Assembly: GCF_037935975.1 (NCBI RefSeq)
Contig: NZ_CP149817.1
Coordinates: 3,782,001-3,846,000 of the forward strand
Origin: Teredinibacter turnerae
GTDB lineage: Bacteria > Pseudomonadota > Gammaproteobacteria > Pseudomonadales > Cellvibrionaceae
Direction of reading: 5' to 3'
Length of the DNA stretch: 64,000 nucleotides
Every line of letters starts with the position of its first letter. Position 1 is the stretch's first letter. The notes under the pieces are model-generated. The model saw only the letters and a list, made by a program, of their open reading frames with translations, was not told the origin of the DNA and made no database searches. Below are positions 3,861-23,614 of the stretch, piece by piece. The position numbers and the translations under genes are program-made.

Positions 3861-3866
3861 TGGAAC

Positions 3867-3981
3867 GCCCCGCTAGGCGGGGCTGCTGGGGCGCTTCCTT
3901 TGGTCGCTTTAGGGGCGCCGCCCATGGCGGCTTCTGGGAACGCTCGCATTGCTTCGCTTCTGGGGGGCGCTGCGCAGGTGG
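3867..3981. repeat. Short hairpin array (linker type CTTCTGGGAACG)
   Basis: Two clear hairpins: GCCCCGC-TAG-GCGGGGC (3867-3883) and GCCGCC-CAT-GGCGGC (3917-3931). The second is followed directly by the linker CTTCTGGGAACG (3931-3942). The array ends at the stop codon of the S23-like gene. Same family as the arrays at 4441, 4918, 5417, 7502 and 13180. Confidence 0.75.
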
Positions 3982-4287
3982 TTAGCTTTGGTTTGTGTTC
4001 CGCTTTTTTCTTGCTCTGATCAAGGCGCCGAGTTGGTGTGAAATAGTCGTCGCTTTAGCGAGCAAGTCTTTGCCTAGCGCTTGTTCCACATAGCCAATCT
4101 CGATCCCTATGTATAGCTGGGTAATCAATTCTGCGGTTGAGCCTTTGGCGATATTTGACGGTATTGAGAGGGCGGAGCGCGTAATCTGATCTCGAAAGCC
4201 ATAATCCCGCAGTGTGCCAAGATTTTTGTACACCTCAACACACAAACGCGCGCTCTCCTTCCAAACATCCAGTTTTTTGAACTTCAT
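3982..4287 (-). CDS. S23/IVP-type four-helix bundle protein, internally deleted copy
   Basis: About 101 aa. It starts at the ATG at 4287, chosen because AAGGGA sits 6 bases upstream; a longer reading from 4305 is less likely. The N-terminal MKFKKLDVWKES and ITRSALSIPSNIA are typical of the four-helix-bundle family first described in 23S rRNA intervening sequences and related to the Avd accessory protein of diversity-generating retroelements. The usual stretch between SNIAEG and the AxGSxAELETQL helix (about 20 residues) is missing: the sequence goes straight from SNIAKGS to TAELITQLYIG. That looks like a deletion between two IA(E/K)G-like direct repeats. It is the only one of three tandem copies with a full C-terminus. 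Function unknown; whether it still folds is unclear. Confidence 0.65.
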   Translation of the reverse strand: MKFKKLDVWKESARLCVEVYKNLGTLRDYGFRDQITRSALSIPSNIAKGSTAELITQLYIGIEIGYVEQALGKDLLAKATTISHQLGALIRARKKRNTNQS

Positions 4288-4440
4288 CGAAAATCCCTTT
4301 TCCATGGCAAGTTAAGAACGCTCCGCTTCTGGGGCGCTTGATTTGCGATCCATCATACCGCCTAAACCGACAAACCTCTTCTACCTACCCCAGCTCTGCC
4401 CTACCAAGTCAAATCATAAGGCAGCCAAAGGGTTTCTTCC

Positions 4441-4550
4441 CCCAGCAGGGCGAAGCCCGCTCCCAGCAGCCGCCAAGGGCGGCGCCCCCAGAAGCGAAGC
4501 GTTCCTAGCAGCGAAGCGTTCCCAAAAGCGCAACGCCCCAAATTTACCAA
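4441..4550. repeat. Short hairpin array, tandem unit 1
   Basis: Hairpins GGGC-GAA-GCCC (4448-4458) and GCCGCC-AAG-GGCGGC (4469-4483), followed by repeats of AAGCG, GTTCC and CAGCAG. Here the linker runs as GTTCCCAGAAG/GCTCCCAGCAG, the reverse complement of the type at 3931. Confidence 0.7.
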
Positions 4551-4554
4551 GTTC

Positions 4555-4760
4555 TTCTTCCTCAAAACCAATCTCGCCCCCTATGTATATCTGGATGATA
4601 TTTGTGCGCTTGAACCTTTGGCGATATTTGACGGTATAGAGAGAGCGGAGCGAGTAATCTGATCTCGAAAGCCATAGTCCCGCAGTGTGCCAAGGTTTTT
4701 GTACACCTCGACGCACAAACGCGCACTTTCCTTCCAAACATCCAGCTTTTTGAACTTCAC
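4555..4760 (-). pseudogene. Truncated S23/IVP-type four-helix bundle gene, copy 2
   Basis: GTG at 4760 (ATG in copy 1), then KFKKLDVWKES to SIPSNIAKGS, nearly identical to copy 1. After that it reads SAQISSRYT and stops at 4581. The DNA beyond still resembles copy 1 (ATACATAGGG, GAGATTGG), but one extra base relative to copy 1 throws it out of frame, and it runs into hairpin-array sequence. A decayed fragment. Confidence 0.7.
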
Positions 4761-4917
4761 CGAAAATTCCTTTTCCATGGCAAGTTAAGAACGCTCCGCT
4801 TCTGGGGCGCTTGATTTGCGATCCATCATACCGCCTAAACCGACAAACCTCCTCTACCCACCCCAGCCCAGCCCAGCCGAGCCAAATCATATGGTCGCCA
4901 AAGGTTTTCTCTTCCCC

Positions 4918-5030
4918 CCAGCAGGGCGAAGCCCGTTCCCAGCAGCCGCCAAGGGCGGCGCCCCCAGAAGGGAAGCGTTCCCAGAAGCGCAGCAAAGCAA
5001 AGCGTTCCCAAAAGCGCAACGCCCCAAATT
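4918..5030. repeat. Short hairpin array, tandem unit 2
   Basis: Same pattern as unit 1: GGGC-GAA-GCCC, then GCCGCC-AAG-GGCGGC, linked by GTTCCCAGCAG, then GAAGCGTTCCCAGAAGCG runs. It differs from unit 1 by small indels. Confidence 0.7.
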
Positions 5031-5034
5031 TACC

Positions 5035-5246
5035 AAGTTCTTCTTCCTCAAAACCAATCTCGCCCCCTATGTATATCTGGATGATATTTCTGGGCTTGAA
5101 CCTTTGGCGATATTTGACGGTATTGAGAGGGCGGAGCGGGTAATCTGATCTCGAAAGCCATAATCCCGCAGAGTGCCGAGATTTTTGTACACCTCGACAC
5201 ACAAACGCGCACTTTCCTTCCAAACATCCAGTTTTTTGAACTTCAC
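5035..5246 (-). pseudogene. Truncated S23/IVP-type four-helix bundle gene, copy 3
   Basis: GTG at 5246, KFKKLDVWKES to SIPSNIAKGS, then SPEISSRYT and a stop at 5067. It has the same frameshift and the same array-derived 3' junction as copy 2, so copies 2 and 3 share a damaged ancestor. Confidence 0.7.
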
Positions 5247-5416
5247 CGAAAATCCCTTTTCCATGGCAAGCAAGTTGAGAACGCCCCACTTTACTCCGCA
5301 ACTGGGGCGCTTGATTTGCGATCCATCATACCGCCTAAACCGACAAACCTCTTCTACCTACCCCAGCTCTGCCCTACCAAGTCAAATCATAACGAAGCCG
5401 AAGGCTCCCCCTCCCC

Positions 5417-5578
5417 AGCAGGGCGAAGCCCGTTAGCCGCCAACGGCGGCGCCCCAGAAGCGAAGCGTTCCTAGCAGCGAAGCAAAGCGGAGTGTTCCCA
5501 GAAGCGCAGCAAAGCGAAGCGTTCCCAGCAGCGAAGCAAAGCAAGCGTTCCAAAAGCGCAGCGCCCCAAAACCGAGCC
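5417..5578. repeat. Short hairpin array, tandem unit 3
   Basis: GGGC-GAA-GCCC and GCCGCC-AAC-GGCGGC, then an expanded series of GAAGCG / AGCAAAGC / GTTCCCAGCAG modules up to the rpsA terminator. It is the longest of the three tandem-unit arrays. Confidence 0.7.
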
Positions 5579-5670: not shown

Positions 5671-7353
5671 TTATTTTTCTTTGGATTGCATTTCTGCTTT
5701 GATCAGGTCGCCCAGCGTAGTAGGAGCTGCAATTTCTGCTTGCTTGGCGCTGTGGTCTTTGATCGCTTGCTTCTCGTCGTCTGAATCCTTGGCTTTGATG
5801 CTGAGGATGATCGTACGATTTTTACGGTCAACGTTGGTGATTTTGGCTTCTACGTCGTCGCCTTCTTTCAGCGCGTTGCGGGCATCTTCTACCTTGTCGC
5901 GGCTGATTTCAGAAGCTTTCAGTGTACCTTCAACGTCGTCGGCCAGAGCGATTACCGCTTCTTTAGCGTCAACAGTTTTCACGGTACCGTTAACGATGGA
6001 GCCTTTATCGTTGTTGGTTACGTATACGGAGAACGGATCTTCGTCCAGCTGCTTGATACCCAGGGAGATACGCTCACGCTCTGGATCAATTGCCAGTACA
6101 ACGGTTTCCAGCTCGTCGCCTTTCTTGTACTTGCGTACGGCTTCTTCGCCAGCTTCGTTCCAGCTGATGTCGGACAGGTGAACCAGACCATCAATACCGC
6201 CTTCCAGGCCGATGAAGATACCGAAGTCGGTGATCGACTTGATTTTGCCGGTGATCTTGTCGCCTTTCGCGTACTGGTTAGAGAACGCATCCCACGGATT
6301 TTCTTGACACTGCTTGATACCCAGAGAAATACGACGACGCTCTTCGTCGATATCCAGAATCATCACTTCCACTTCGTCGCCCAGGTTTACAACCTTGCTT
6401 GGGTGGATGTTTTTGTTGGTCCAATCCATTTCGGAAACGTGTACCAGACCTTCAACACCTTCTTCGATTTCAGCGAAACAGCCGTAGTCGGTAAGGTTGG
6501 TGATGGTGGCTTTAACCTTGGCACCTTCTGGGTAACGCTGAGTGATAGCGGCCCATGGATCTTCGCCCAATTGCTTGAGGCCAAGAGAAACACGGTTGCG
6601 CTCGCGGTCGAACTTGAGCACTTTAACTTCGATTTCATCGCCAACAGCAACGATTTCGCTCGGATGCTTGATACGCTTCCAAGCCATGTCGGTGATGTGC
6701 AACAGACCGTCTACGCCGCCCAGGTCAACGAAGGCACCGTAATCGGTAAGGTTCTTAACGATACCTTTAACTGCCTGACCTTCTTGCAGAGTAGCGAGCA
6801 GCTCTTCGCGCTCTTCAGTGTTGGTCTGCTCCATAACCGCACGACGGGATACAACCACGTTGTTGCGCTTTTGATCCAGCTTGATAACTTTGAACTCGAG
6901 CTCTTTGCCTTCCAGGTGAGTCGTTTCACGTACAGGACGTACGTCGACCAGAGAGCCCGGCAGGAACGCGCGAATGCCAGCAACGTCAACAGTGAAACCA
7001 CCTTTAACTTTGCCGTTAATAACACCAGTAATAACTTCTTCAGACTCGTGAGCAGCTTCCAGAACTTTCCAGGACTCTGCACGCTTGGCTTTTTCGCGAG
7101 AAAGGCGAGTTTCACCGAAACCGTCTTCTACGGTTTCCAGAGCAACTTGAACTTCGTCACCGATACTGAGGTCGAGTTCGCCTTTTTCGTTAAGGAATTG
7201 TGCGGCGGGAATAACGCCTTCAGACTTGAGACCTGCGTGAACAGTTACCCAATCTTGGTCGATGTCGATAACAACACCGGTTACGATGGTGCCTGGCACC
7301 ATATCTATCGTTTGTAAGCTCTCTTCAAAGAGTTCTGCAAAGCTTTCGCTCAT
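5671..7353 (-). CDS. rpsA: 30S ribosomal protein S1
   Basis: RNA-binding protein of the small ribosomal subunit that helps recruit mRNAs, especially those with weak ribosome sites. The 560-aa product has the standard six S1 repeats: two ribosome-binding repeats at the N-terminus ([31 protein letters not shown]) and four mRNA-binding repeats with the pattern [17 protein letters not shown] / [18 protein letters not shown] / [18 protein letters not shown]. The last repeat ([18 protein letters not shown]) is more divergent, as usual. Length and order match the family. The upstream gap to lapB (571 bp) is mostly a hairpin array instead of the usual cmk gene. Confidence 0.98.
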
Positions 7354-7501
7354 TGCGCTACCTGTAAGAAATACACCACACGCCAGTATGTGGGTCTGTT
7401 TGCGAATACCGAAAACCGCTGAATTTCTGGCTGACAGCCGGTTCGGGTGGAATTTTAGGGGCGCGAAGGTAACAGGTTATTGCGCTGGGATCAAGGGGAA
7501 T

Positions 7502-7924
7502 CACGCGCGGAGCGCGTGGTTTCGGGGAACGGGCGCAGGCGCCCTTCTGGGGCGCGGCGGGGCCGCTTTGGGGAACGTCCACTGCGTGGACTTCTGGGAA
7601 CGGGCGGCAAGCGCCCTTCTGGGACGCGGCAAAGCCGCTTCGGGGAACGGGCTTCGCCCTTCTGGGTTTAGAAAACTTTTGGCTTTTCCTAGCAGGGAGC
7701 GCAGCTCCCGTCCCAGAAGCGGGCGCAGACCGCGTTCCCCAAGTGGCCAAAGGCCACGCCCCAGCAGCTGGACAAAGTCCAGCGTTCCACCAATTCCTTC
7801 GAGTTGGCCCCTAGAAGGGCGAAGCCCGTTCCCAGCAGCCGCCAACGGCGGCGTTCCAAAAGCGAGCACCGCGAGCGCACCCAGCAGTGTAGCGAAGCGA
7901 AACGTTCCGCCCGCGCCAGCGGGC
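7502..7924. repeat. Array of about 13 different hairpins with conserved linkers, between lapB and rpsA
   Basis: Hairpins follow every 25-40 bp with unrelated stems: CACGCGC-GGA-GCGCGTG (7502), GGGCGC-AG-GCGCCC (7531), GCGGC/GCCGC (7554), GTCCAC-TGC-GTGGAC (7577), GGGCG/CGCCC (7602), GCGGC-AAA-GCCGC (7626), GGGC-TTC-GCCC (7649), GGGAGC-GCA-GCTCCC (7695), GCGG/CCGC (7719), GTGGCC-AAA-GGCCAC (7743), CTGGAC-AAA-GTCCAG (7768), GGGC-GAA-GCCC (7817), GCCGCC-AAC-GGCGGC (7838) and GCCCGC-GCCA-GCGGGC (7909-7924). Linkers are TTCTGGGAACG in the left half and CGTTCCC-AGAAG/AGCAG in the right half, so polarity flips near 7680. The last hairpin abuts the lapB stop codon. The remaining 7354-7501 should hold the rpsA promoter and leader. 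Confidence 0.85.
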
Positions 7925-9109
7925 TCACTCTGCCATCCCCATTTTCCCCCAACTCCGACAACTCGGGCAGAGCCAGTGATTGGCTTGCGCGGTGAAACCG
8001 CAGGTGCTGCATATATAGAAGAAATAGTTATCTAAAATTTGAGTGATGGCAGGCTTGAGCTTTTCGTAGGGGATCTGTTCGCTGGCAGGTTCCGCAGTAC
8101 AGAGGGTCAGGAGGGTTTGTACAGCGACCATTTCCGGGTAATGAGCGATTCCTTCATACAGTATGCGGCAGGCGGCCTCTGGGCCGTTTAACTTCTCCGT
8201 TGCACAGGTCAGGTGCCACAAAAGCATAAGGCTGGGTTGCGCCAAATGAATATCGTTAAGCAGCTGAAGATAGTCGCGGTCGCTCTTTAATGCGATATAG
8301 CATTCGCGCATGAGGGGTAAGGCTTCAGAAATAACCTGGGGACTTTGGTAGGGAAGCTTTTTAAGAATGCCAAGTGCGGCAGCAGCGGCGCCATCGTTGA
8401 GTTCTATCTGCGCCTGCATTAGTTGAGCGCGGGCGCACTGTTTATCAAAACGCAGTGCATTGCGCAGCAGGCGACGCGCTTCCAGTACCTGGTTGTTGGC
8501 CAGCGCTTTCTCGGCCAACTCGCAGCTGAAGTGCGCCTGCATCTCGCGCCAGTTGTCTGCGGTGGAGGCGAATTTTCGACTGGTAAGGCGATCTGCGACA
8601 TCTATTGCGTCGAGCCAGTCACTGGTTTCCCGGTATAACTCCACCAGGTAGCTGAGCGCTTGTTCACGAACTTTTTTCTCGGTGTGTTTAGCGTCTGCCA
8701 GCTCTTTGAAGAGAGACTCGGCTCTGTCCAGTAAGCCCGCTTTCAGAAAATCAACGCCCAGTTCCAGTTGGGCCAATTGCAATTGTGGGCGCGGCAGACT
8801 TGGACGCGCCAACAGATTTTGATGGACGCGAATTGCGCGCGCAGTTTCACCTCGGCGGCGAAGCAAGGCGCCCAACGCGAGATGCGTCTCCAGGGTTTCG
8901 CTGTTGACCTCCAGCGCGCTGATGAAGGTGTCGACAGCGGCGTCCGGCTCGTCGTTAAGCAGTTGGTTGAGGCCAACATAATAATTGCGCTTCAACCAAC
9001 TGGACGATTGTTGCTGCGGCAGGCGACCGGGCCCGCGAGGCAGTCGCCCTAACGCGAACCCTATTGCCAGGGCGGCAAACAGCAGAACAAAAACGATTGG
9101 GTCGGACAT
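7925..9109 (-). CDS. lapB: Lipopolysaccharide assembly protein B (TPR protein with rubredoxin-like metal site)
   Basis: Inner-membrane-anchored, cytoplasm-facing TPR protein. In E. coli it works with FtsH and YejM to control LpxC turnover and so LPS amount. The 394-aa product has an N-terminal membrane helix (DPIVFVLLFAALAIGFALG), a series of TPR helices, and a C-terminal rubredoxin-like domain with two CxxC pairs (CSTCGF and CPSC). The ATG at 9109 is chosen; a GTG two codons earlier overlaps the lapA stop. lapA and lapB are adjacent as in other proteobacteria, and lapB is probably translationally coupled to lapA because no clear ribosome site precedes it. Confidence 0.93.
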   Translation of the reverse strand: MSDPIVFVLLFAALAIGFALGRLPRGPGRLPQQQSSSWLKRNYYVGLNQLLNDEPDAAVDTFISALEVNSETLETHLALGALLRRRGETARAIRVHQNLLARPSLPRPQLQLAQLELGVDFLKAGLLDRAESLFKELADAKHTEKKVREQALSYLVELYRETSDWLDAIDVADRLTSRKFASTADNWREMQAHFSCELAEKALANNQVLEARRLLRNALRFDKQCARAQLMQAQIELNDGAAAAALGILKKLPYQSPQVISEALPLMRECYIALKSDRDYLQLLNDIHLAQPSLMLLWHLTCATEKLNGPEAACRILYEGIAHYPEMVAVQTLLTLCTAEPASEQIPYEKLKPAITQILDNYFFYICSTCGFTAQANHWLCPSCRSWGKMGMAE

Positions 9110-9114
9110 AAACA

Positions 9115-9420
9115 CTAGGGGCTAAGTTGTGCGGCTCGCAGCTTGTCCACTTCTTTTTTCGCCTTGTTCAATTCACGTTTGCGCGCAAGCAACTTGGTAT
9201 TCGCCAGTATCAGTGTGCCGAACCAACCCAATAAAATACCGAGCGCAAAGGTAAAGCACAGGTAGAACCCAATGCTGAGCTGAGGAAACTGGATCGCAAA
9301 CAGGTTCACCGAGATAAGATCGGCGTTGGCCCAAGCGATCCAACCTGCGATTGCGCACACCAGAAACAGCCACACCAGAATAAACAACCGACGGAACCAG
9401 CGATAAATTCGCGCAAACAC
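9115..9420 (-). CDS. lapA: Lipopolysaccharide assembly protein A domain protein
   Basis: Small inner-membrane protein of the LapA/YciS family, partner of LapB. In 101 aa it shows two hydrophobic helices (LFILVWLFLVCAIAGWIAW and the stretch around FYLCFTFALGILLGWFGTL) and a charged C-terminal coiled tail (ARKRELNKAKKEVDKLRAAQ). Length and two-helix layout fit the family. It starts 42 bp after cmk and ends 5 bp before the lapB ATG. In many gammaproteobacteria lapA follows ihfB; here it follows cmk. Confidence 0.9.
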   Translation of the reverse strand: MFARIYRWFRRLFILVWLFLVCAIAGWIAWANADLISVNLFAIQFPQLSIGFYLCFTFALGILLGWFGTLILANTKLLARKRELNKAKKEVDKLRAAQLSP

Positions 9421-11743: not shown

Positions 11744-13150
11744 CTAACCGATTTTCTTAGCATCCCAATGAGGGAAGTGCTTGCGGACGAGGGCATTGAG
11801 TTCGACTTCAAACTCCGAGTAATCGCCTTTGGTCGCCGCAGCCGAGGCCAGCGCCTCTATCGCCATGCCCGCCCCAACTGTAATGTTGGTGAGCCTGTCG
11901 ATCACGATAAACGCGCCGGTTGCCCGGTTTTGCTGGTAAGCATCTACAACAACTTCTTGTTCCATCTGTACGTCAACAACCGCAATATCGTTCAACTGCA
12001 TTGCCGACTCTTCAGATTTTTCGAAGGTATTGACGTCTACCCGGTATTCGATATCCGCAACCACACCCGGGGTAACTTTGCTTGCAAATTTAAACAAGTA
12101 TTGTTTACCTGGCTTGAGTTCCGCTTCGGACATCCACACCAAATGAGCGCGTAAGCGGTTGGATTGCGTTTGCTCGGAATCGGCCAATACAATCATATCG
12201 CCACGGCTGATATCGATTTCGTCCGCGAGCGTCAGCGTAACCGCCTGACCAACAAATGCTTGATCAAGCTCGCCGTCAAAAGTAACAATCGATTTAACGG
12301 TACTGGTTTTACCCGAGGGTAGCGCTTTCACCGTATCGCCAACCTTTACCACACCAGAAGCCACCGTGCCGCAAAAGCCACGGAAGTTCAGGTTCGGACG
12401 ATTCACAAACTGCACTGGAAAACGAAAATCGTCCGCATTTTTATCGCTGGCAATTTCTACGGTTTCGAGAATTTGCATCAGTGATTTGCCGGAATACCAG
12501 GGCGTGCGCTCGCTGATATTAACCACGTTGTCGCCGTCCAGTGCTGACATGGGAACAAAGTGCAATTCCGCCGGATTGAGCGATTTTGAAAGATCCAGGT
12601 ACGACTGCTTGATTTCTTCGAAGCGACTCTCGCTGAACTCGACCAAATCCATTTTGTTAATCGCCACTACCACGTGCTTAATACCCAGCAGAGAAGCGAT
12701 GTACGAATGGCGACGCGTTTGGGTTTGCACACCGTAGCGGGCGTCGATCAGAATTACCGCCAAATCACAGGTAGACGCGCCTGTCGCCATGTTGCGTGTG
12801 TATTGCTCGTGCCCTGGCGTATCCGCAATAATAAATTTACGCTTAGCGGTAGAGAAATAGCGGTAAGCAACATCGATGGTGATGCCCTGCTCCCGCTCAG
12901 CTTGCAGGCCATCGACCAGCAACGCCAAATCGATTTTTTCGCCGGTAGTGCCGTGCTTGGAGGTATCCGATGCAACGGCCGCAAGTTGATCTTCGTAAAT
13001 CATTTTGGAGTCGTGCAGGAGACGGCCAATGAGTGTGGATTTACCATCGTCGACACTGCCGCAGGTTAAAAACCGCAACAATTCCTTGCGCTCATGCTGC
13101 GCAAGATACGCATCAATATCTGTTTCTATTAATTCTGACTGGTGAGACAT
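11744..13150 (-). CDS. cysN: Sulfate adenylyltransferase subunit 1 (GTPase)
   Basis: Regulatory GTPase subunit of ATP sulfurylase. GTP hydrolysis drives formation of adenosine phosphosulfate by CysD in sulfate assimilation. The 468-aa product has the EF-Tu-like G motifs GSVDDGKST (P-loop), [12 protein letters not shown] and NKMDL, followed by two beta-barrel domains. There is no fused APS kinase (CysC) domain, and the protein ends after the third barrel, so cysC must lie elsewhere if present. Normally cysN follows cysD within a few bases. Here 405 bp of repeats and a terminator stand between, which should reduce or uncouple cysN expression. Confidence 0.96.
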
Positions 13151-13179
13151 AATAAAAATTTTCTCCGAAAATTTTTGGA

Positions 13180-13526
13180 GCGCCGCCGCCTTTCGGCGGT
13201 GGCTGCTGGGAACGGCCTTTGGCCCTCTCGGAACGCTGCGCTACTGGGTACGCTCGCTTCACTCACTTCTGGGAGCAACTCAGGGTCGCATTCCCGAAAT
13301 ACGCAAAACAACTGTTCCTACAAGTGGCTCAAAGCCACGTTCCATCTAACTTTCCGCGATTAACTGCGGGTTAAAAACTGTCTTATTCGGCTCCATCGAA
13401 CCAGCCGCTTGAAGCCAAAAAACTAACGGTAGTTTCCGTTGCCCCACTCTTGCCCAGAAGCAGCAATACTGCGTTCCCGCCAAGTCGCGAAGCGACTGTT
13501 CCCAGAAGTGGCTGTATGCCACGCTC
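13180..13526. repeat. Degenerate hairpin array between cysD and cysN
   Basis: Hairpins with differing stems include GCCGCC-TTTC-GGCGGT, GGCC-TTT-GGCC, GTGGCT-CAA-AGCCAC (13324), GCAG/CTGC (13460), GTCGC-GAA-GCGAC (13484) and GTGGC-TGTAT-GCCAC (13508). Linkers are of the CTGCTGGGAACG type on the left and GTTCCCAGAAG on the right. The stems are less regular than at 7502-7924, suggesting decay. Confidence 0.75.
13362..13402 (-). pseudogene. Possible partial duplicate of the cysD 3' end
   Basis: The minus strand reads GSMEPNKTVF-stop, then AACCCGC and a GC hairpin. The true cysD end reads [12 protein letters not shown]-stop, then AACCCG and a GC hairpin. The similarity in protein, stop position and following hairpin suggests a short, degenerate direct duplication on the far side of the array. 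It is short enough that chance cannot be excluded. Confidence 0.4.
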
Positions 13527-13527
13527 T

Positions 13528-13556
13528 AAAAAAACCACCCGCGCTAACGCACGGGT
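13528..13556 (-). terminator. Intrinsic terminator directly after cysD
   Basis: On the minus strand the cysD stop codon runs into ACCCG...CGGGT with an inner GCG/CGC pair, then GG and seven T. This looks like a working terminator between cysD and cysN, two subunits usually made from one transcript. Confidence 0.7.
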
Positions 13557-14467
13557 TAAAAATAACCTTCCTGCTTTTTCTTCTCCATTGAGCCGGAGGA
13601 GTCGTGGTCGATAACACGGCCCTGGCGCTCGGAGGTTTTGGTAAGCAGCATTTCTTGAATAATTTCCGGCAGCGTGGTCGCGGTGGACTCCACAGCACCA
13701 GTAAGCGGGTAGCAACCGAGTGTACGGAAGCGCACCATTTTTTCTTCGATCACGTCATCTTCGCCAATTGGCATACGATCGTCGTCCACCATAATCAACA
13801 CGCCGTCTTTTTCGACGACCGGACGTTTGGCGGCAAAGTAAAGCGGCACAATGGGGATATTTTCCAGGTGAATATATTGCCAGATATCCAGCTCAGTCCA
13901 GTTACTCAGCGGGAACACGCGAATGCTCTCGCCTTTGTCCACACGGCCGTTGTAAAGGTTCCACAATTCCGGGCGTTGGTTTTTCGGGTCCCAGCGATGG
14001 TTTTTGTCGCGGAACGAGTACACACGCTCTTTAGCCCGGGATTTTTCTTCGTCGCGACGGGCTCCGCCAAATGCGGCGTCGAAACCGTATTTATCAAGCG
14101 CCTGTTTAAGCGACTGGGTTTTCATAATATCGGTGTGCTTGGCACTGCCATGGGTAAACGGACCTACGCCCATTTCCACACCTTCCTGGTTAATATGCAC
14201 AATTAAATCCCAGCCCAGCTCTTTTAGCCGGTTATCGCGGAACTCAATCATTTCCTTAAACTTCCAGGTGGTATCCACATGCATCAGCGGAAACGGCGGC
14301 TTGCCGGGGGCGAACGCCTTCATTGCCAGGTGCATCATCACAGCGGAATCTTTACCGATGGAATAGAGCATCACCGGGTTGTCGAATTCCGCAGCCACCT
14401 CACGAATAATGTGGATGCTTTCGGCCTCAAGCTGCTTGAGGTGCGTCATTTGAAACTGGTTAGACAT
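13556..14467 (-). CDS. cysD: Sulfate adenylyltransferase subunit 2
   Basis: Catalytic subunit of ATP sulfurylase; makes adenosine 5'-phosphosulfate from ATP and sulfate together with CysN. The 303-aa product matches the family length (about 302). It contains the PP-loop type motif [14 protein letters not shown], the [14 protein letters not shown] segment, and the conserved C-terminal end [12 protein letters not shown]. The start at 14467 is chosen because [17 protein letters not shown] aligns with the family N-terminus; an ATG five codons upstream is possible, and neither has a strong ribosome site. A TATAAT box lies at 14554-14559. Confidence 0.96.
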
Positions 14468-14553
14468 GAGTGACTCGTCCATAATTTTTCGCCAACATTC
14501 GTAAACAGCTACCTTAAAAGAAACTACCTAAAAAAGGAGCTACGAGTTGACCG

Positions 14554-22951: not shown

Positions 22952-23614
22952 ATGTCGCTGAAAGCGGTTTTTTTCGATCTGGACGGAACCCTGTTGGACA
23001 CCGCGCCCAACTTTGTTATTGCCATGAACAAGATGCTCGCGCGCCGGGATCGTGCCCCTATAGCGGAGCAGGCGCTGCGCGCCGTGGTGTCTGATGGCGC
23101 CAACGCAATGCTCCAACTGGTATTTGGCACAACACCAGATGATGCCGAATTCCCCGCATTGCGGCAGGAATTTCTGGATTGCTATCTGGAGGATCTCGCC
23201 TCTGTTACCACCGCATATCCGGGAATAGATTCCTTGATTGGCGAGCTGGCAGCGCGAGGCGTCGCCTGGGGCATCGTTACCAATAAGCCAGCCACCTACG
23301 CCGAGCCGTTGATGACCTTTTTCGATTTCGCCAGCGAACCCAGTGCGCTCATCTGCCCCGATCACGTGACCGAACGCAAACCCGCGCCAGACGCGCTCCT
23401 GCTGGCCTGCGAACAAACCGGATGCAGCCCTGACCAGGCCATTTACGTGGGCGATCACCAGCGGGACATCGAATGTGGCATCAATGCAGGAATGCCAACC
23501 GTCGCGGTTGGATACGGCTATATTCACACTAACGACAGCCACACCTGCTGGAATGCTGACCACACAGTGGAAAGCGCCAACGAAATCTGGCCCATCGTCC
23601 ACCGCTACCTGTAA
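22952..23614 (+). CDS. mupP: HAD-family phosphatase, MupP/Gph type
   Basis: 220-aa haloacid dehalogenase-type phosphatase. Motif I is FFDLDGTLLDT, motif II IVTNKP, and motif III/IV lies in VTERKPAPD and YVGDHQRDIE. The nearest families are phosphoglycolate phosphatase (Gph) and MupP, which dephosphorylates MurNAc-6-phosphate in peptidoglycan recycling. Its place directly after ubiG and before yciK is where MupP sits in Pseudomonas, so MupP is the better call, though sequence reading alone cannot separate the two. It starts 5 bp after ubiG stops. Confidence 0.8.
   Translation: MSLKAVFFDLDGTLLDTAPNFVIAMNKMLARRDRAPIAEQALRAVVSDGANAMLQLVFGTTPDDAEFPALRQEFLDCYLEDLASVTTAYPGIDSLIGELAARGVAWGIVTNKPATYAEPLMTFFDFASEPSALICPDHVTERKPAPDALLLACEQTGCSPDQAIYVGDHQRDIECGINAGMPTVAVGYGYIHTNDSHTCWNADHTVESANEIWPIVHRYL

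Follow-up and report, generated by a model that had tools for sequence, protein, structure and literature searches.

The stretch of DNA analysed here, called the window below, comprises 64,000 nucleotides (positions 3,782,001-3,846,000 of a single 5.35-Mb contig of Teredinibacter turnerae). Between two of its genes, at 7502-7924, a preliminary description had noticed a row of about 13 short hairpins, each with a stem of its own and all joined by conserved linkers, which raises the question of how base pairing can be kept where sequence is not, and to what kind of element such a design belongs. The hairpin array itself is confirmed and the interpretation given to it is partly supported, while three features absent from that description have been added: half of the units are inverted, a second stem type contains tandem G.A pairs, and genes of the S23/IVP family lie nearby. 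The explanation favoured here, with a probability of roughly 0.4, is that an S23/IVP-type mobile element has these arrays as its arms, mostly in the form of arm-only, non-autonomous derivatives, and that they would be recognised in the folded state.

The hairpin array at 7502-7924 and its mirrored halves

The array runs from the lapB stop codon to the region upstream of rpsA, its right end lying directly at the lapB stop (7925). Both host genes are on the minus strand; rpsA (5671-7353) flanks two of the arrays considered below, and lapB (7925-9115) ends at this one (the names rpsA, lapB, ihfB, cysD and cysN are presumed from the translations). Thirteen perfect, non-overlapping hairpins with a stem of at least 4 and a loop of 3-5 were counted in 7495-7930, against a mean of 6.4 and a maximum of 12 in 300 dinucleotide shuffles, and the loops are as first described. 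For stems of at least 6 the count is 8, against a mean of 0.63 and a maximum of 3 in 300 such shuffles. In addition, the array folds far better than shuffled sequence both as RNA (z -7.3) and as DNA (z -7.8), and the array of the related genome G135 gives an RNA z of -18.5 (20 shuffles).

Read on its own strand, the unit has the form CCCAG(A/C)A-[stem-loop-stem]-GTTCC, the CC being common to directly adjoining units. The linker initially reported as conserved, TTCTGGGAACG, is present in the left half of the array (7526-7666) but reads as its reverse complement in the right half (7688-7908), which makes the whole an inverted repeat about 7667-7687. The left half, on the minus strand, contains units at 7526-7551, 7572-7598, 7597-7623 and 7644-7666, with variant-linker hairpins in between, and a covariance model (R1) matches 7526-7551, 7572-7598 and 7644-7666. 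Unit orientation flips in the centre (7667-7687). The right half, on the plus strand, contains units at 7688-7711, 7712-7738, 7760-7788, 7810-7832, 7831-7857 and 7880-7908, among which 7688-7711 is a weak R1 match (E 0.57) and 7810-7832 is without an R1 match. Left and right linkers of the arrays are complementary to each other. Pairing is kept in the stems, but these are not all different, as had been thought, since GGGC-gaa-GCCC and GGGCG..CGCCC each occur twice.

The mirror arrangement extends to other copies. With a cluster defined as two or more units separated by gaps of up to 300 bp, 40 clusters were obtained; 26 of them hold both orientations, and 25 of these 26 run purely minus-then-plus, so that the units point outward from the centre on both sides. 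Strand switches between neighbours are minus-to-plus in 28 cases and the reverse in 2, both of the latter in one G134 cluster that resembles a repeated block.

Maintained pairing and a strand-specific stem type

Inserts were chosen by their linkers alone, with pairing not required, which avoids circularity. They came from the window and from loci L081-L098, four related genomes; these loci had been taken because they held strict matches or, in G135, an S23 gene, and the counts are not genome-wide. The sample comprises 232 units with 138 distinct inserts. At least four perfect outer pairs are present in 75 of the 138, compared with a mean of 17.8 and a maximum of 29 over 1000 swaps of arms of equal length, and these 75 perfect inserts have 44 distinct 5′ stems. 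In the 83 distinct units of 27 nt, 82.1% of cells pair (55.0% in shuffles), double changes affect 131 cells (45.0 in shuffles) and the covariation score is 0.616 (0.192 in shuffles and at most 0.165 for slid structures); none of 500 shuffles reaches any of these values, although the units are related by descent within a genome and shuffle counts are thus not probabilities. Two further measures on the same units, which count how many pairs and how many pair types show changes, are not clearly above shuffles (113 and 128 of 500). When aligned, the 83 units read (C/T)C(C/T)AG(A/C)A before the stem and G(T/C)TCC after it, having been chosen by that linker. The original claim that pairing is kept while sequence is not is therefore borne out by the perfect stems (75 against about 18 after arm swapping) and the double changes alike, whereas the claim that the hairpins are perfect applies to those 75 inserts, the others being 30 with tandem G.A and 33 that fit neither stem design.

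The second stem design, found in 30 distinct inserts, consists of two outer positions, GA opposite GA, inner pairs and a loop. Where GA/GA occupies the middle (33 inserts), the cells around it pair in 111 of 132 cases (swap mean 64.7, maximum 84). A tally of 498 cells gave 399 Watson-Crick pairs, 65 G.A or A.G, 10 G.T, 4 A.C and 4 T.C or C.T. The arrangement GA..GA occurs in 61 units, on both plus and minus strands, and TC..TC in none, while the loops show a bias of the same kind, with GNA in 24 of 70 triloops and its complement TNC in 6. In DNA as in RNA, G.A pairs in tandem are capable of stable stacking, and the complementary T.C pairs much less so. Because tandem G.A and loops of the GNA type are confined to one strand of the unit, the functional form would be that strand, single and folded, either as ssDNA or as RNA of the same strand. 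In G135, whose locus has rpsA on the plus strand, 8 GA..GA units lie on the minus strand and 6 on the plus strand; one sense transcript would thus present many of these units in the wrong form, which is evidence against a role at the messenger level alone. Elsewhere in the own genome, at L081:4627-4837 (approximately G000:C1:3,749,601-3,749,837), five G.A-type units (ACGACC AAA GGGAGT) are spaced about 53 nt apart in one orientation.

Distribution of the arrays and their co-location with S23/IVP genes

The strict pattern occurs at 31 places in the own genome (G000), with 0 and 1 for the reversed control. Within the window, R1 gives 22 matches (E up to 1), located in 3862-5525, 7526-7908 and 13177-13502, together with a stray at 23065. 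The second array region, between rpsA and ihfB (3862-5578), consists of a 473-bp block repeated in tandem about three times, every copy with hairpin units and a shortened S23/IVP gene; TRF reports 3.0 copies of period 473 over 4080-5508, and the units span 3862-5551. The third array (13177-13502) lies between cysN (11744-13150, minus) and cysD (13556-14482, minus) and has minus units followed by plus units, with R1 matches at 13177-13210 and 13247-13273 (minus) and at 13317-13343, 13453-13477 and 13481-13502 (plus), at E values from 0.014 to 0.18.

The hairpin-array family is restricted to one genus among 144 genomes of the family (32 genera). Matches to R1 were obtained in five of them, all of that genus (G000 27, G134 33, G135 26, G136 21, G132 1), and these counts are lower bounds because the best 53 candidates per genome were scored. 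The strict pattern was found in 22 of the 144 genomes, and its reversed control in 6; only G000, G134 and G136 have more than two matches, and in the 19 genomes with one or two, 1 of 20 inserts has at least four outer pairs. A scan of public genomes with a two-unit pattern, which may omit the own genome and near relatives so that close kin could still carry it, gave 23 stretches from scattered phyla; as a single insert among the 23 pairs at four or more positions, these stretches are treated as chance. Copies whose stems are mostly random and non-pairing, which had been named as the outcome that would tell against the preliminary description, are thus the opposite of what the genus loci contain, while outside the genus the rare linker matches do not pair (2 of 43 with at least four outer pairs, two of those pairs being fixed by the search pattern itself). 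As to known families, Rfam gave no match at gathering score in the 64-kb window, in line with what had been supposed, and the array, between lapB and rpsA, does not occupy a 23S rRNA insertion site. A CRISPR array is ruled out, as the inserts pair with themselves and are not unrelated, non-pairing spacers.

Comparison of the same site among relatives reveals both presence and absence of the array. The rpsA-lapB distance is 575-908 bp in the four array genomes. No array is visible in G137, with 164 bp, or in G133, with 251 bp; at 300 bp in G132 and 432 bp in G131, a remnant and a variant array, respectively, were recognised by eye, with weak model matches. The arrays turn over fast: between G000 and G136, whose neighbouring aligned stretches are 92-98% identical, the flanks of the array align almost unchanged and the array itself has been rebuilt. 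The related hairpins GTCCAC-gca-GTGGAC and GTCCGC-gca-GCGGAC are both present in one G136 array. Two further observations concern repeats at such loci. In G134 (L092:12742-12930), three hairpins in repeated blocks share the stem CCGTC/GACGG and have the loops GCA, ACA and TCC, and on the downstream side of rpsA in G131 (L105:601-1400) long GC-rich tandem repeats were seen by eye (GGGTGTCGGGAGCGGCGCGT and relatives).

The rpsA-ihfB region of the window contains an open frame for an internally shortened S23/IVP (four helix bundle) protein (3985-4305, minus; PF05635 in two pieces, E 3.4e-19; TIGR02436) and two more partial copies (4599-4751 and 5091-5237), and the 7502-7924 array itself contains no S23 gene. 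At the same site a full-length S23 gene lies among units in G135 and G136, the latter with a partial copy as well, and G134 has a copy with an in-frame stop. PF05635 is found in four of the eight genus genomes, the same four that have more than 20 R1 matches, and in each of them units lie near an S23 gene; since S23 and arrays share one ancestral site (rpsA-ihfB), the link within the genus counts as one event and not as many. G131 has the variant array at lapB-rpsA but no S23 gene. In G134, G136 and the first G000 block, S23 has minus units as its nearest neighbours on the left and plus units on the right. The G135 gene, placed between two complete arrays, has the opposite neighbours (left plus, right minus), which face it; this tells against a simple model with the gene in the centre. 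Solved structures of the protein family exist (2gsc and 2rld); in the relevant part of PMC4990558 a Xanthomonas member is described as a homopentameric toroid, and the family is presented as being without known function.

Other bacteria have S23 genes between arms of another kind. In a class-wide draw, PF05635 was found in 77 of 369 genomes, and 30 loci (L109-L138) were examined. Strong 7-nt (lag-7) periodicity marks 38 of 60 S23 flanks of 200 nt but none of 365 control windows and a single one of 52 far flanks. At 28 of 30 loci TRF detects period 7 (or 14) no farther than 400 nt from the S23 gene; in 41 control stretches it detects period 7 in none and another period from 5 to 10 in 6. Of the 20 loci that are periodic on both sides, 16 fit the inverted relation better and 4 the direct one, and similar inverted arms were seen by eye at plasmid S23 genes of Nostoc, Riemerella, Picosynechococcus and Geminocystis. 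The nearest subfamily, NF008912, shows strong lag-7 periodicity on at least one side in 11 of 24 loci with a match above cut-off. The bacteria with such arms are very different from one another, and the heptamers at their S23 loci differ between genomes (L109-L138, L144-L147); a 7-nt pattern fitted to G279 and sought in 5 genomes was found at 6 places, all at the G279 S23 locus and none in the other 4. Judged by the longest flanking frames, all genes run in one direction at 14 of the 27 callable loci among the 30.

Inverted, outward-facing repeat arms, as an S23/IVP element would have, are present in the genus (25 of 26 mixed clusters), but an arm unit shared with the S23 loci of other genomes is not, R1 units being absent from 54 such stretches (24 + 30, with many genes in both sets). 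Some of the outward 7-nt repeats, for instance TTCCAGC at L138, look like the linker TTCCCAG, a similarity that need not reflect common descent. Hairpin counts per 250 nt at the 24 NF008912 loci do not discriminate, as the genus's own S23 flanks score the same (1-3), and a 400-nt hairpin measure separates the genus only partly, rising above 20 shuffles in 6 of 8 of its flanks and in 6 of 48 others, so that hairpin arrays with other linkers may exist elsewhere. Hairpin density at the 30 class-wide loci is ordinary except at L130, whose hairpins form a separate repeat about 1 kb upstream and whose S23 flank has 7-nt repeats. That separate repeat (L130:250-690, G265; TCGCGGCCGGGAGGCCGCTCCTAC and partner), a different clustered palindromic one, looks REP-like.

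Three further observations on S23 genes are recorded here. At L138 (G289) the S23 gene is flanked by cysD and cysN (names again presumed), the same pair that holds the S23-less array at 13177-13502 of the window. A type III-B CRISPR operon at L146, on a Picosynechococcus plasmid, has between its cas10 and Cmr3-family genes an S23/IVP gene that overlaps neither. A 1.5-Mb genome (G468:C1) has 11 PF05635 matches, several identical in score and 10 of them at 6-88 kb or 1.415-1.423 Mb, possibly a recent expansion.

Origin of the arrays

Several known systems share part of this design. In the IVS of 23S rRNA that carry an S23 ORF, e.g., in Coxiella, the S23/IVP gene is bracketed by inverted arms, an arrangement resembled here in G134, G136 and the first G000 block, and tandem heptamers are reported upstream of the ORF in the Coxiella IVS; the arrays of the present genus, in contrast, are intergenic, with arms that are arrays of variable hairpins and arm-only copies that are dispersed (compared with the IVS as outlined in PMC4990558). 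Intergenic heptamer repeats (TAACTGA, PMC4679880; GGGAATC, PMC4692102) are short, tandem and sometimes inverted and resemble the 7-nt S23 arms of other bacteria, whereas their unit, as portrayed in the main text of these papers, has no hairpin; the terms ‘IVP’, ‘S23’, ‘four helix’ and ‘intervening’ do not occur in that main text. The repetitive hairpin-forming elements of sponge mitochondria are likewise tandem intergenic hairpins with loops more variable than stems, but their stem sequence is conserved within a type, where here the stems vary and the linkers are conserved (PMC2800124, in its passages on these elements). For a general link of S23/IVP genes with heptamers, or with hairpin arrays, the literature consulted, mainly open-access, gave only the Coxiella case.

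How the stems change bears on the main rival, a mutational one, in which template switching or conversion between units copies one arm onto the other (quasipalindrome correction) and yields complementarity without function. Comparison of 15-nt inserts in 62 nearest pairs gives 62 changes at the 3 loop positions and 76 base changes at the 12 stem positions, so that loops are the more changeable part, and where a stem changes on both sides (17 cases), 15 exchange one Watson-Crick pair for another, as between the two G136 hairpins given above; both results are as this process would have it; the rebuilding of the G000 and G136 arrays between nearly identical flanks also speaks for it. On the other hand, 17 of the 42 one-sided changes are between a Watson-Crick pair and a mismatch, so that broken pairs persist, and mismatches ought to disappear under correction, whereas tandem G.A persists in 61 units, flanked on either side by covarying pairs, and is never replaced by T.C. 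A further 12 of the 42 are single-step exchanges between G.A and a Watson-Crick pair, which keeps the G.A argument from being absolute. Strand bias and the persistence of G.A speak against mutation as the whole story, which we regard as somewhat unlikely, and selection, not mutation alone, may be what keeps the pairing.

The arrays might instead act in the messenger, as 3′-end protectors or segment insulators in operon transcripts (lapB/rpsA, cysD/cysN, rpsA/ihfB) with unequal expression of neighbours. Such a role would suit the placement of all three window arrays between co-directional genes and the strong RNA folding (z -7.3 in the window, -18.5 in G135), but it is made unlikely by the inverted half, which is antisense in any transcript and whose G.A copies would read C.U (as in G135, with 8 minus and 6 plus), by the scarcity of G.U cells (10 against 4 A.C) and by G133 and G137, which have no array at the same gene pair. 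An origin as REP/REPIN-type elements mobilised by a Y1 (RAYT) transposase is improbable. The preliminary description had held that no named element has this design and that it is not REP; tests for REP/RAYT do speak against it, but in the part of PMC3733652 concerned with stem variation, GTAG-type REPs also vary their stems by complementary residues. Like the arrays, the GTAG/CGTC REPs and REPINs of that source are short palindromes with a constant unpaired tag, found as intergenic clusters and dimers in many dispersed copies, and Y1 (PF01797) matches do occur in G134 (4, one over cut-off) and G135 (2). Unlike them, the arrays have other tags, on both sides of the hairpin and with no GTAG or CGTC at the palindrome end, units that follow one another about every 25 nt and share linkers, 5′ stems of 44 different sequences in the 75 perfect inserts, a tandem G.A stem type and outward polarity; moreover, PF01797 has no match in the own genome, which has an S23 gene instead, or in G136, both with many units, and has most in G132 (16) and G131 (7), with few units or none. 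Lastly, a row of Rho-independent terminators or their relics would account for GC-rich stems in intergenic DNA but is most improbable, the linkers being without a T run and 7300-8000 containing 3 terminator-like sites (1.2 in shuffles), 1 of them inside the array.

The array at 7502-7924 belongs to a genus-specific family of intergenic repeat arrays, in which a short constant linker and a hairpin of maintained pairing and free sequence make up a unit repeated head to tail, outward from the centre on both sides. If the arrays are arms of an S23/IVP-type element, as favoured here, the S23 gene between minus-left and plus-right units (G134, G136 and the first G000 block) would be placed much like S23 between inverted 7-nt arms elsewhere. 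In this genus the arm unit would have become a structured hairpin and arms would also have spread alone, their copies settling between genes with no reading frame disturbed and being rebuilt fast by duplication, loss and exchange of units. We infer that S23 or another protein may bind the folded units, and that the S23-type element may move. A much broader proposal, which is quite doubtful at present, is that S23/IVP proteins may define widespread, undescribed mobile elements with outward-facing, fast-evolving arms recognised folded or single-stranded, these arms being 7-nt repeats in most bacteria and variable-stem hairpin units in this genus, where arm-only copies would have spread as hairpin arrays.

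Conserved pairing without conserved sequence, joined to a strand-specific non-canonical motif and a mirror orientation, would imply that a folded single strand is what is recognised. Array pairs between close species offer a natural experiment on whether two-arm changes arise by selection or by templated mutation, and the arrays supply a candidate cis-partner for the S23/IVP family.
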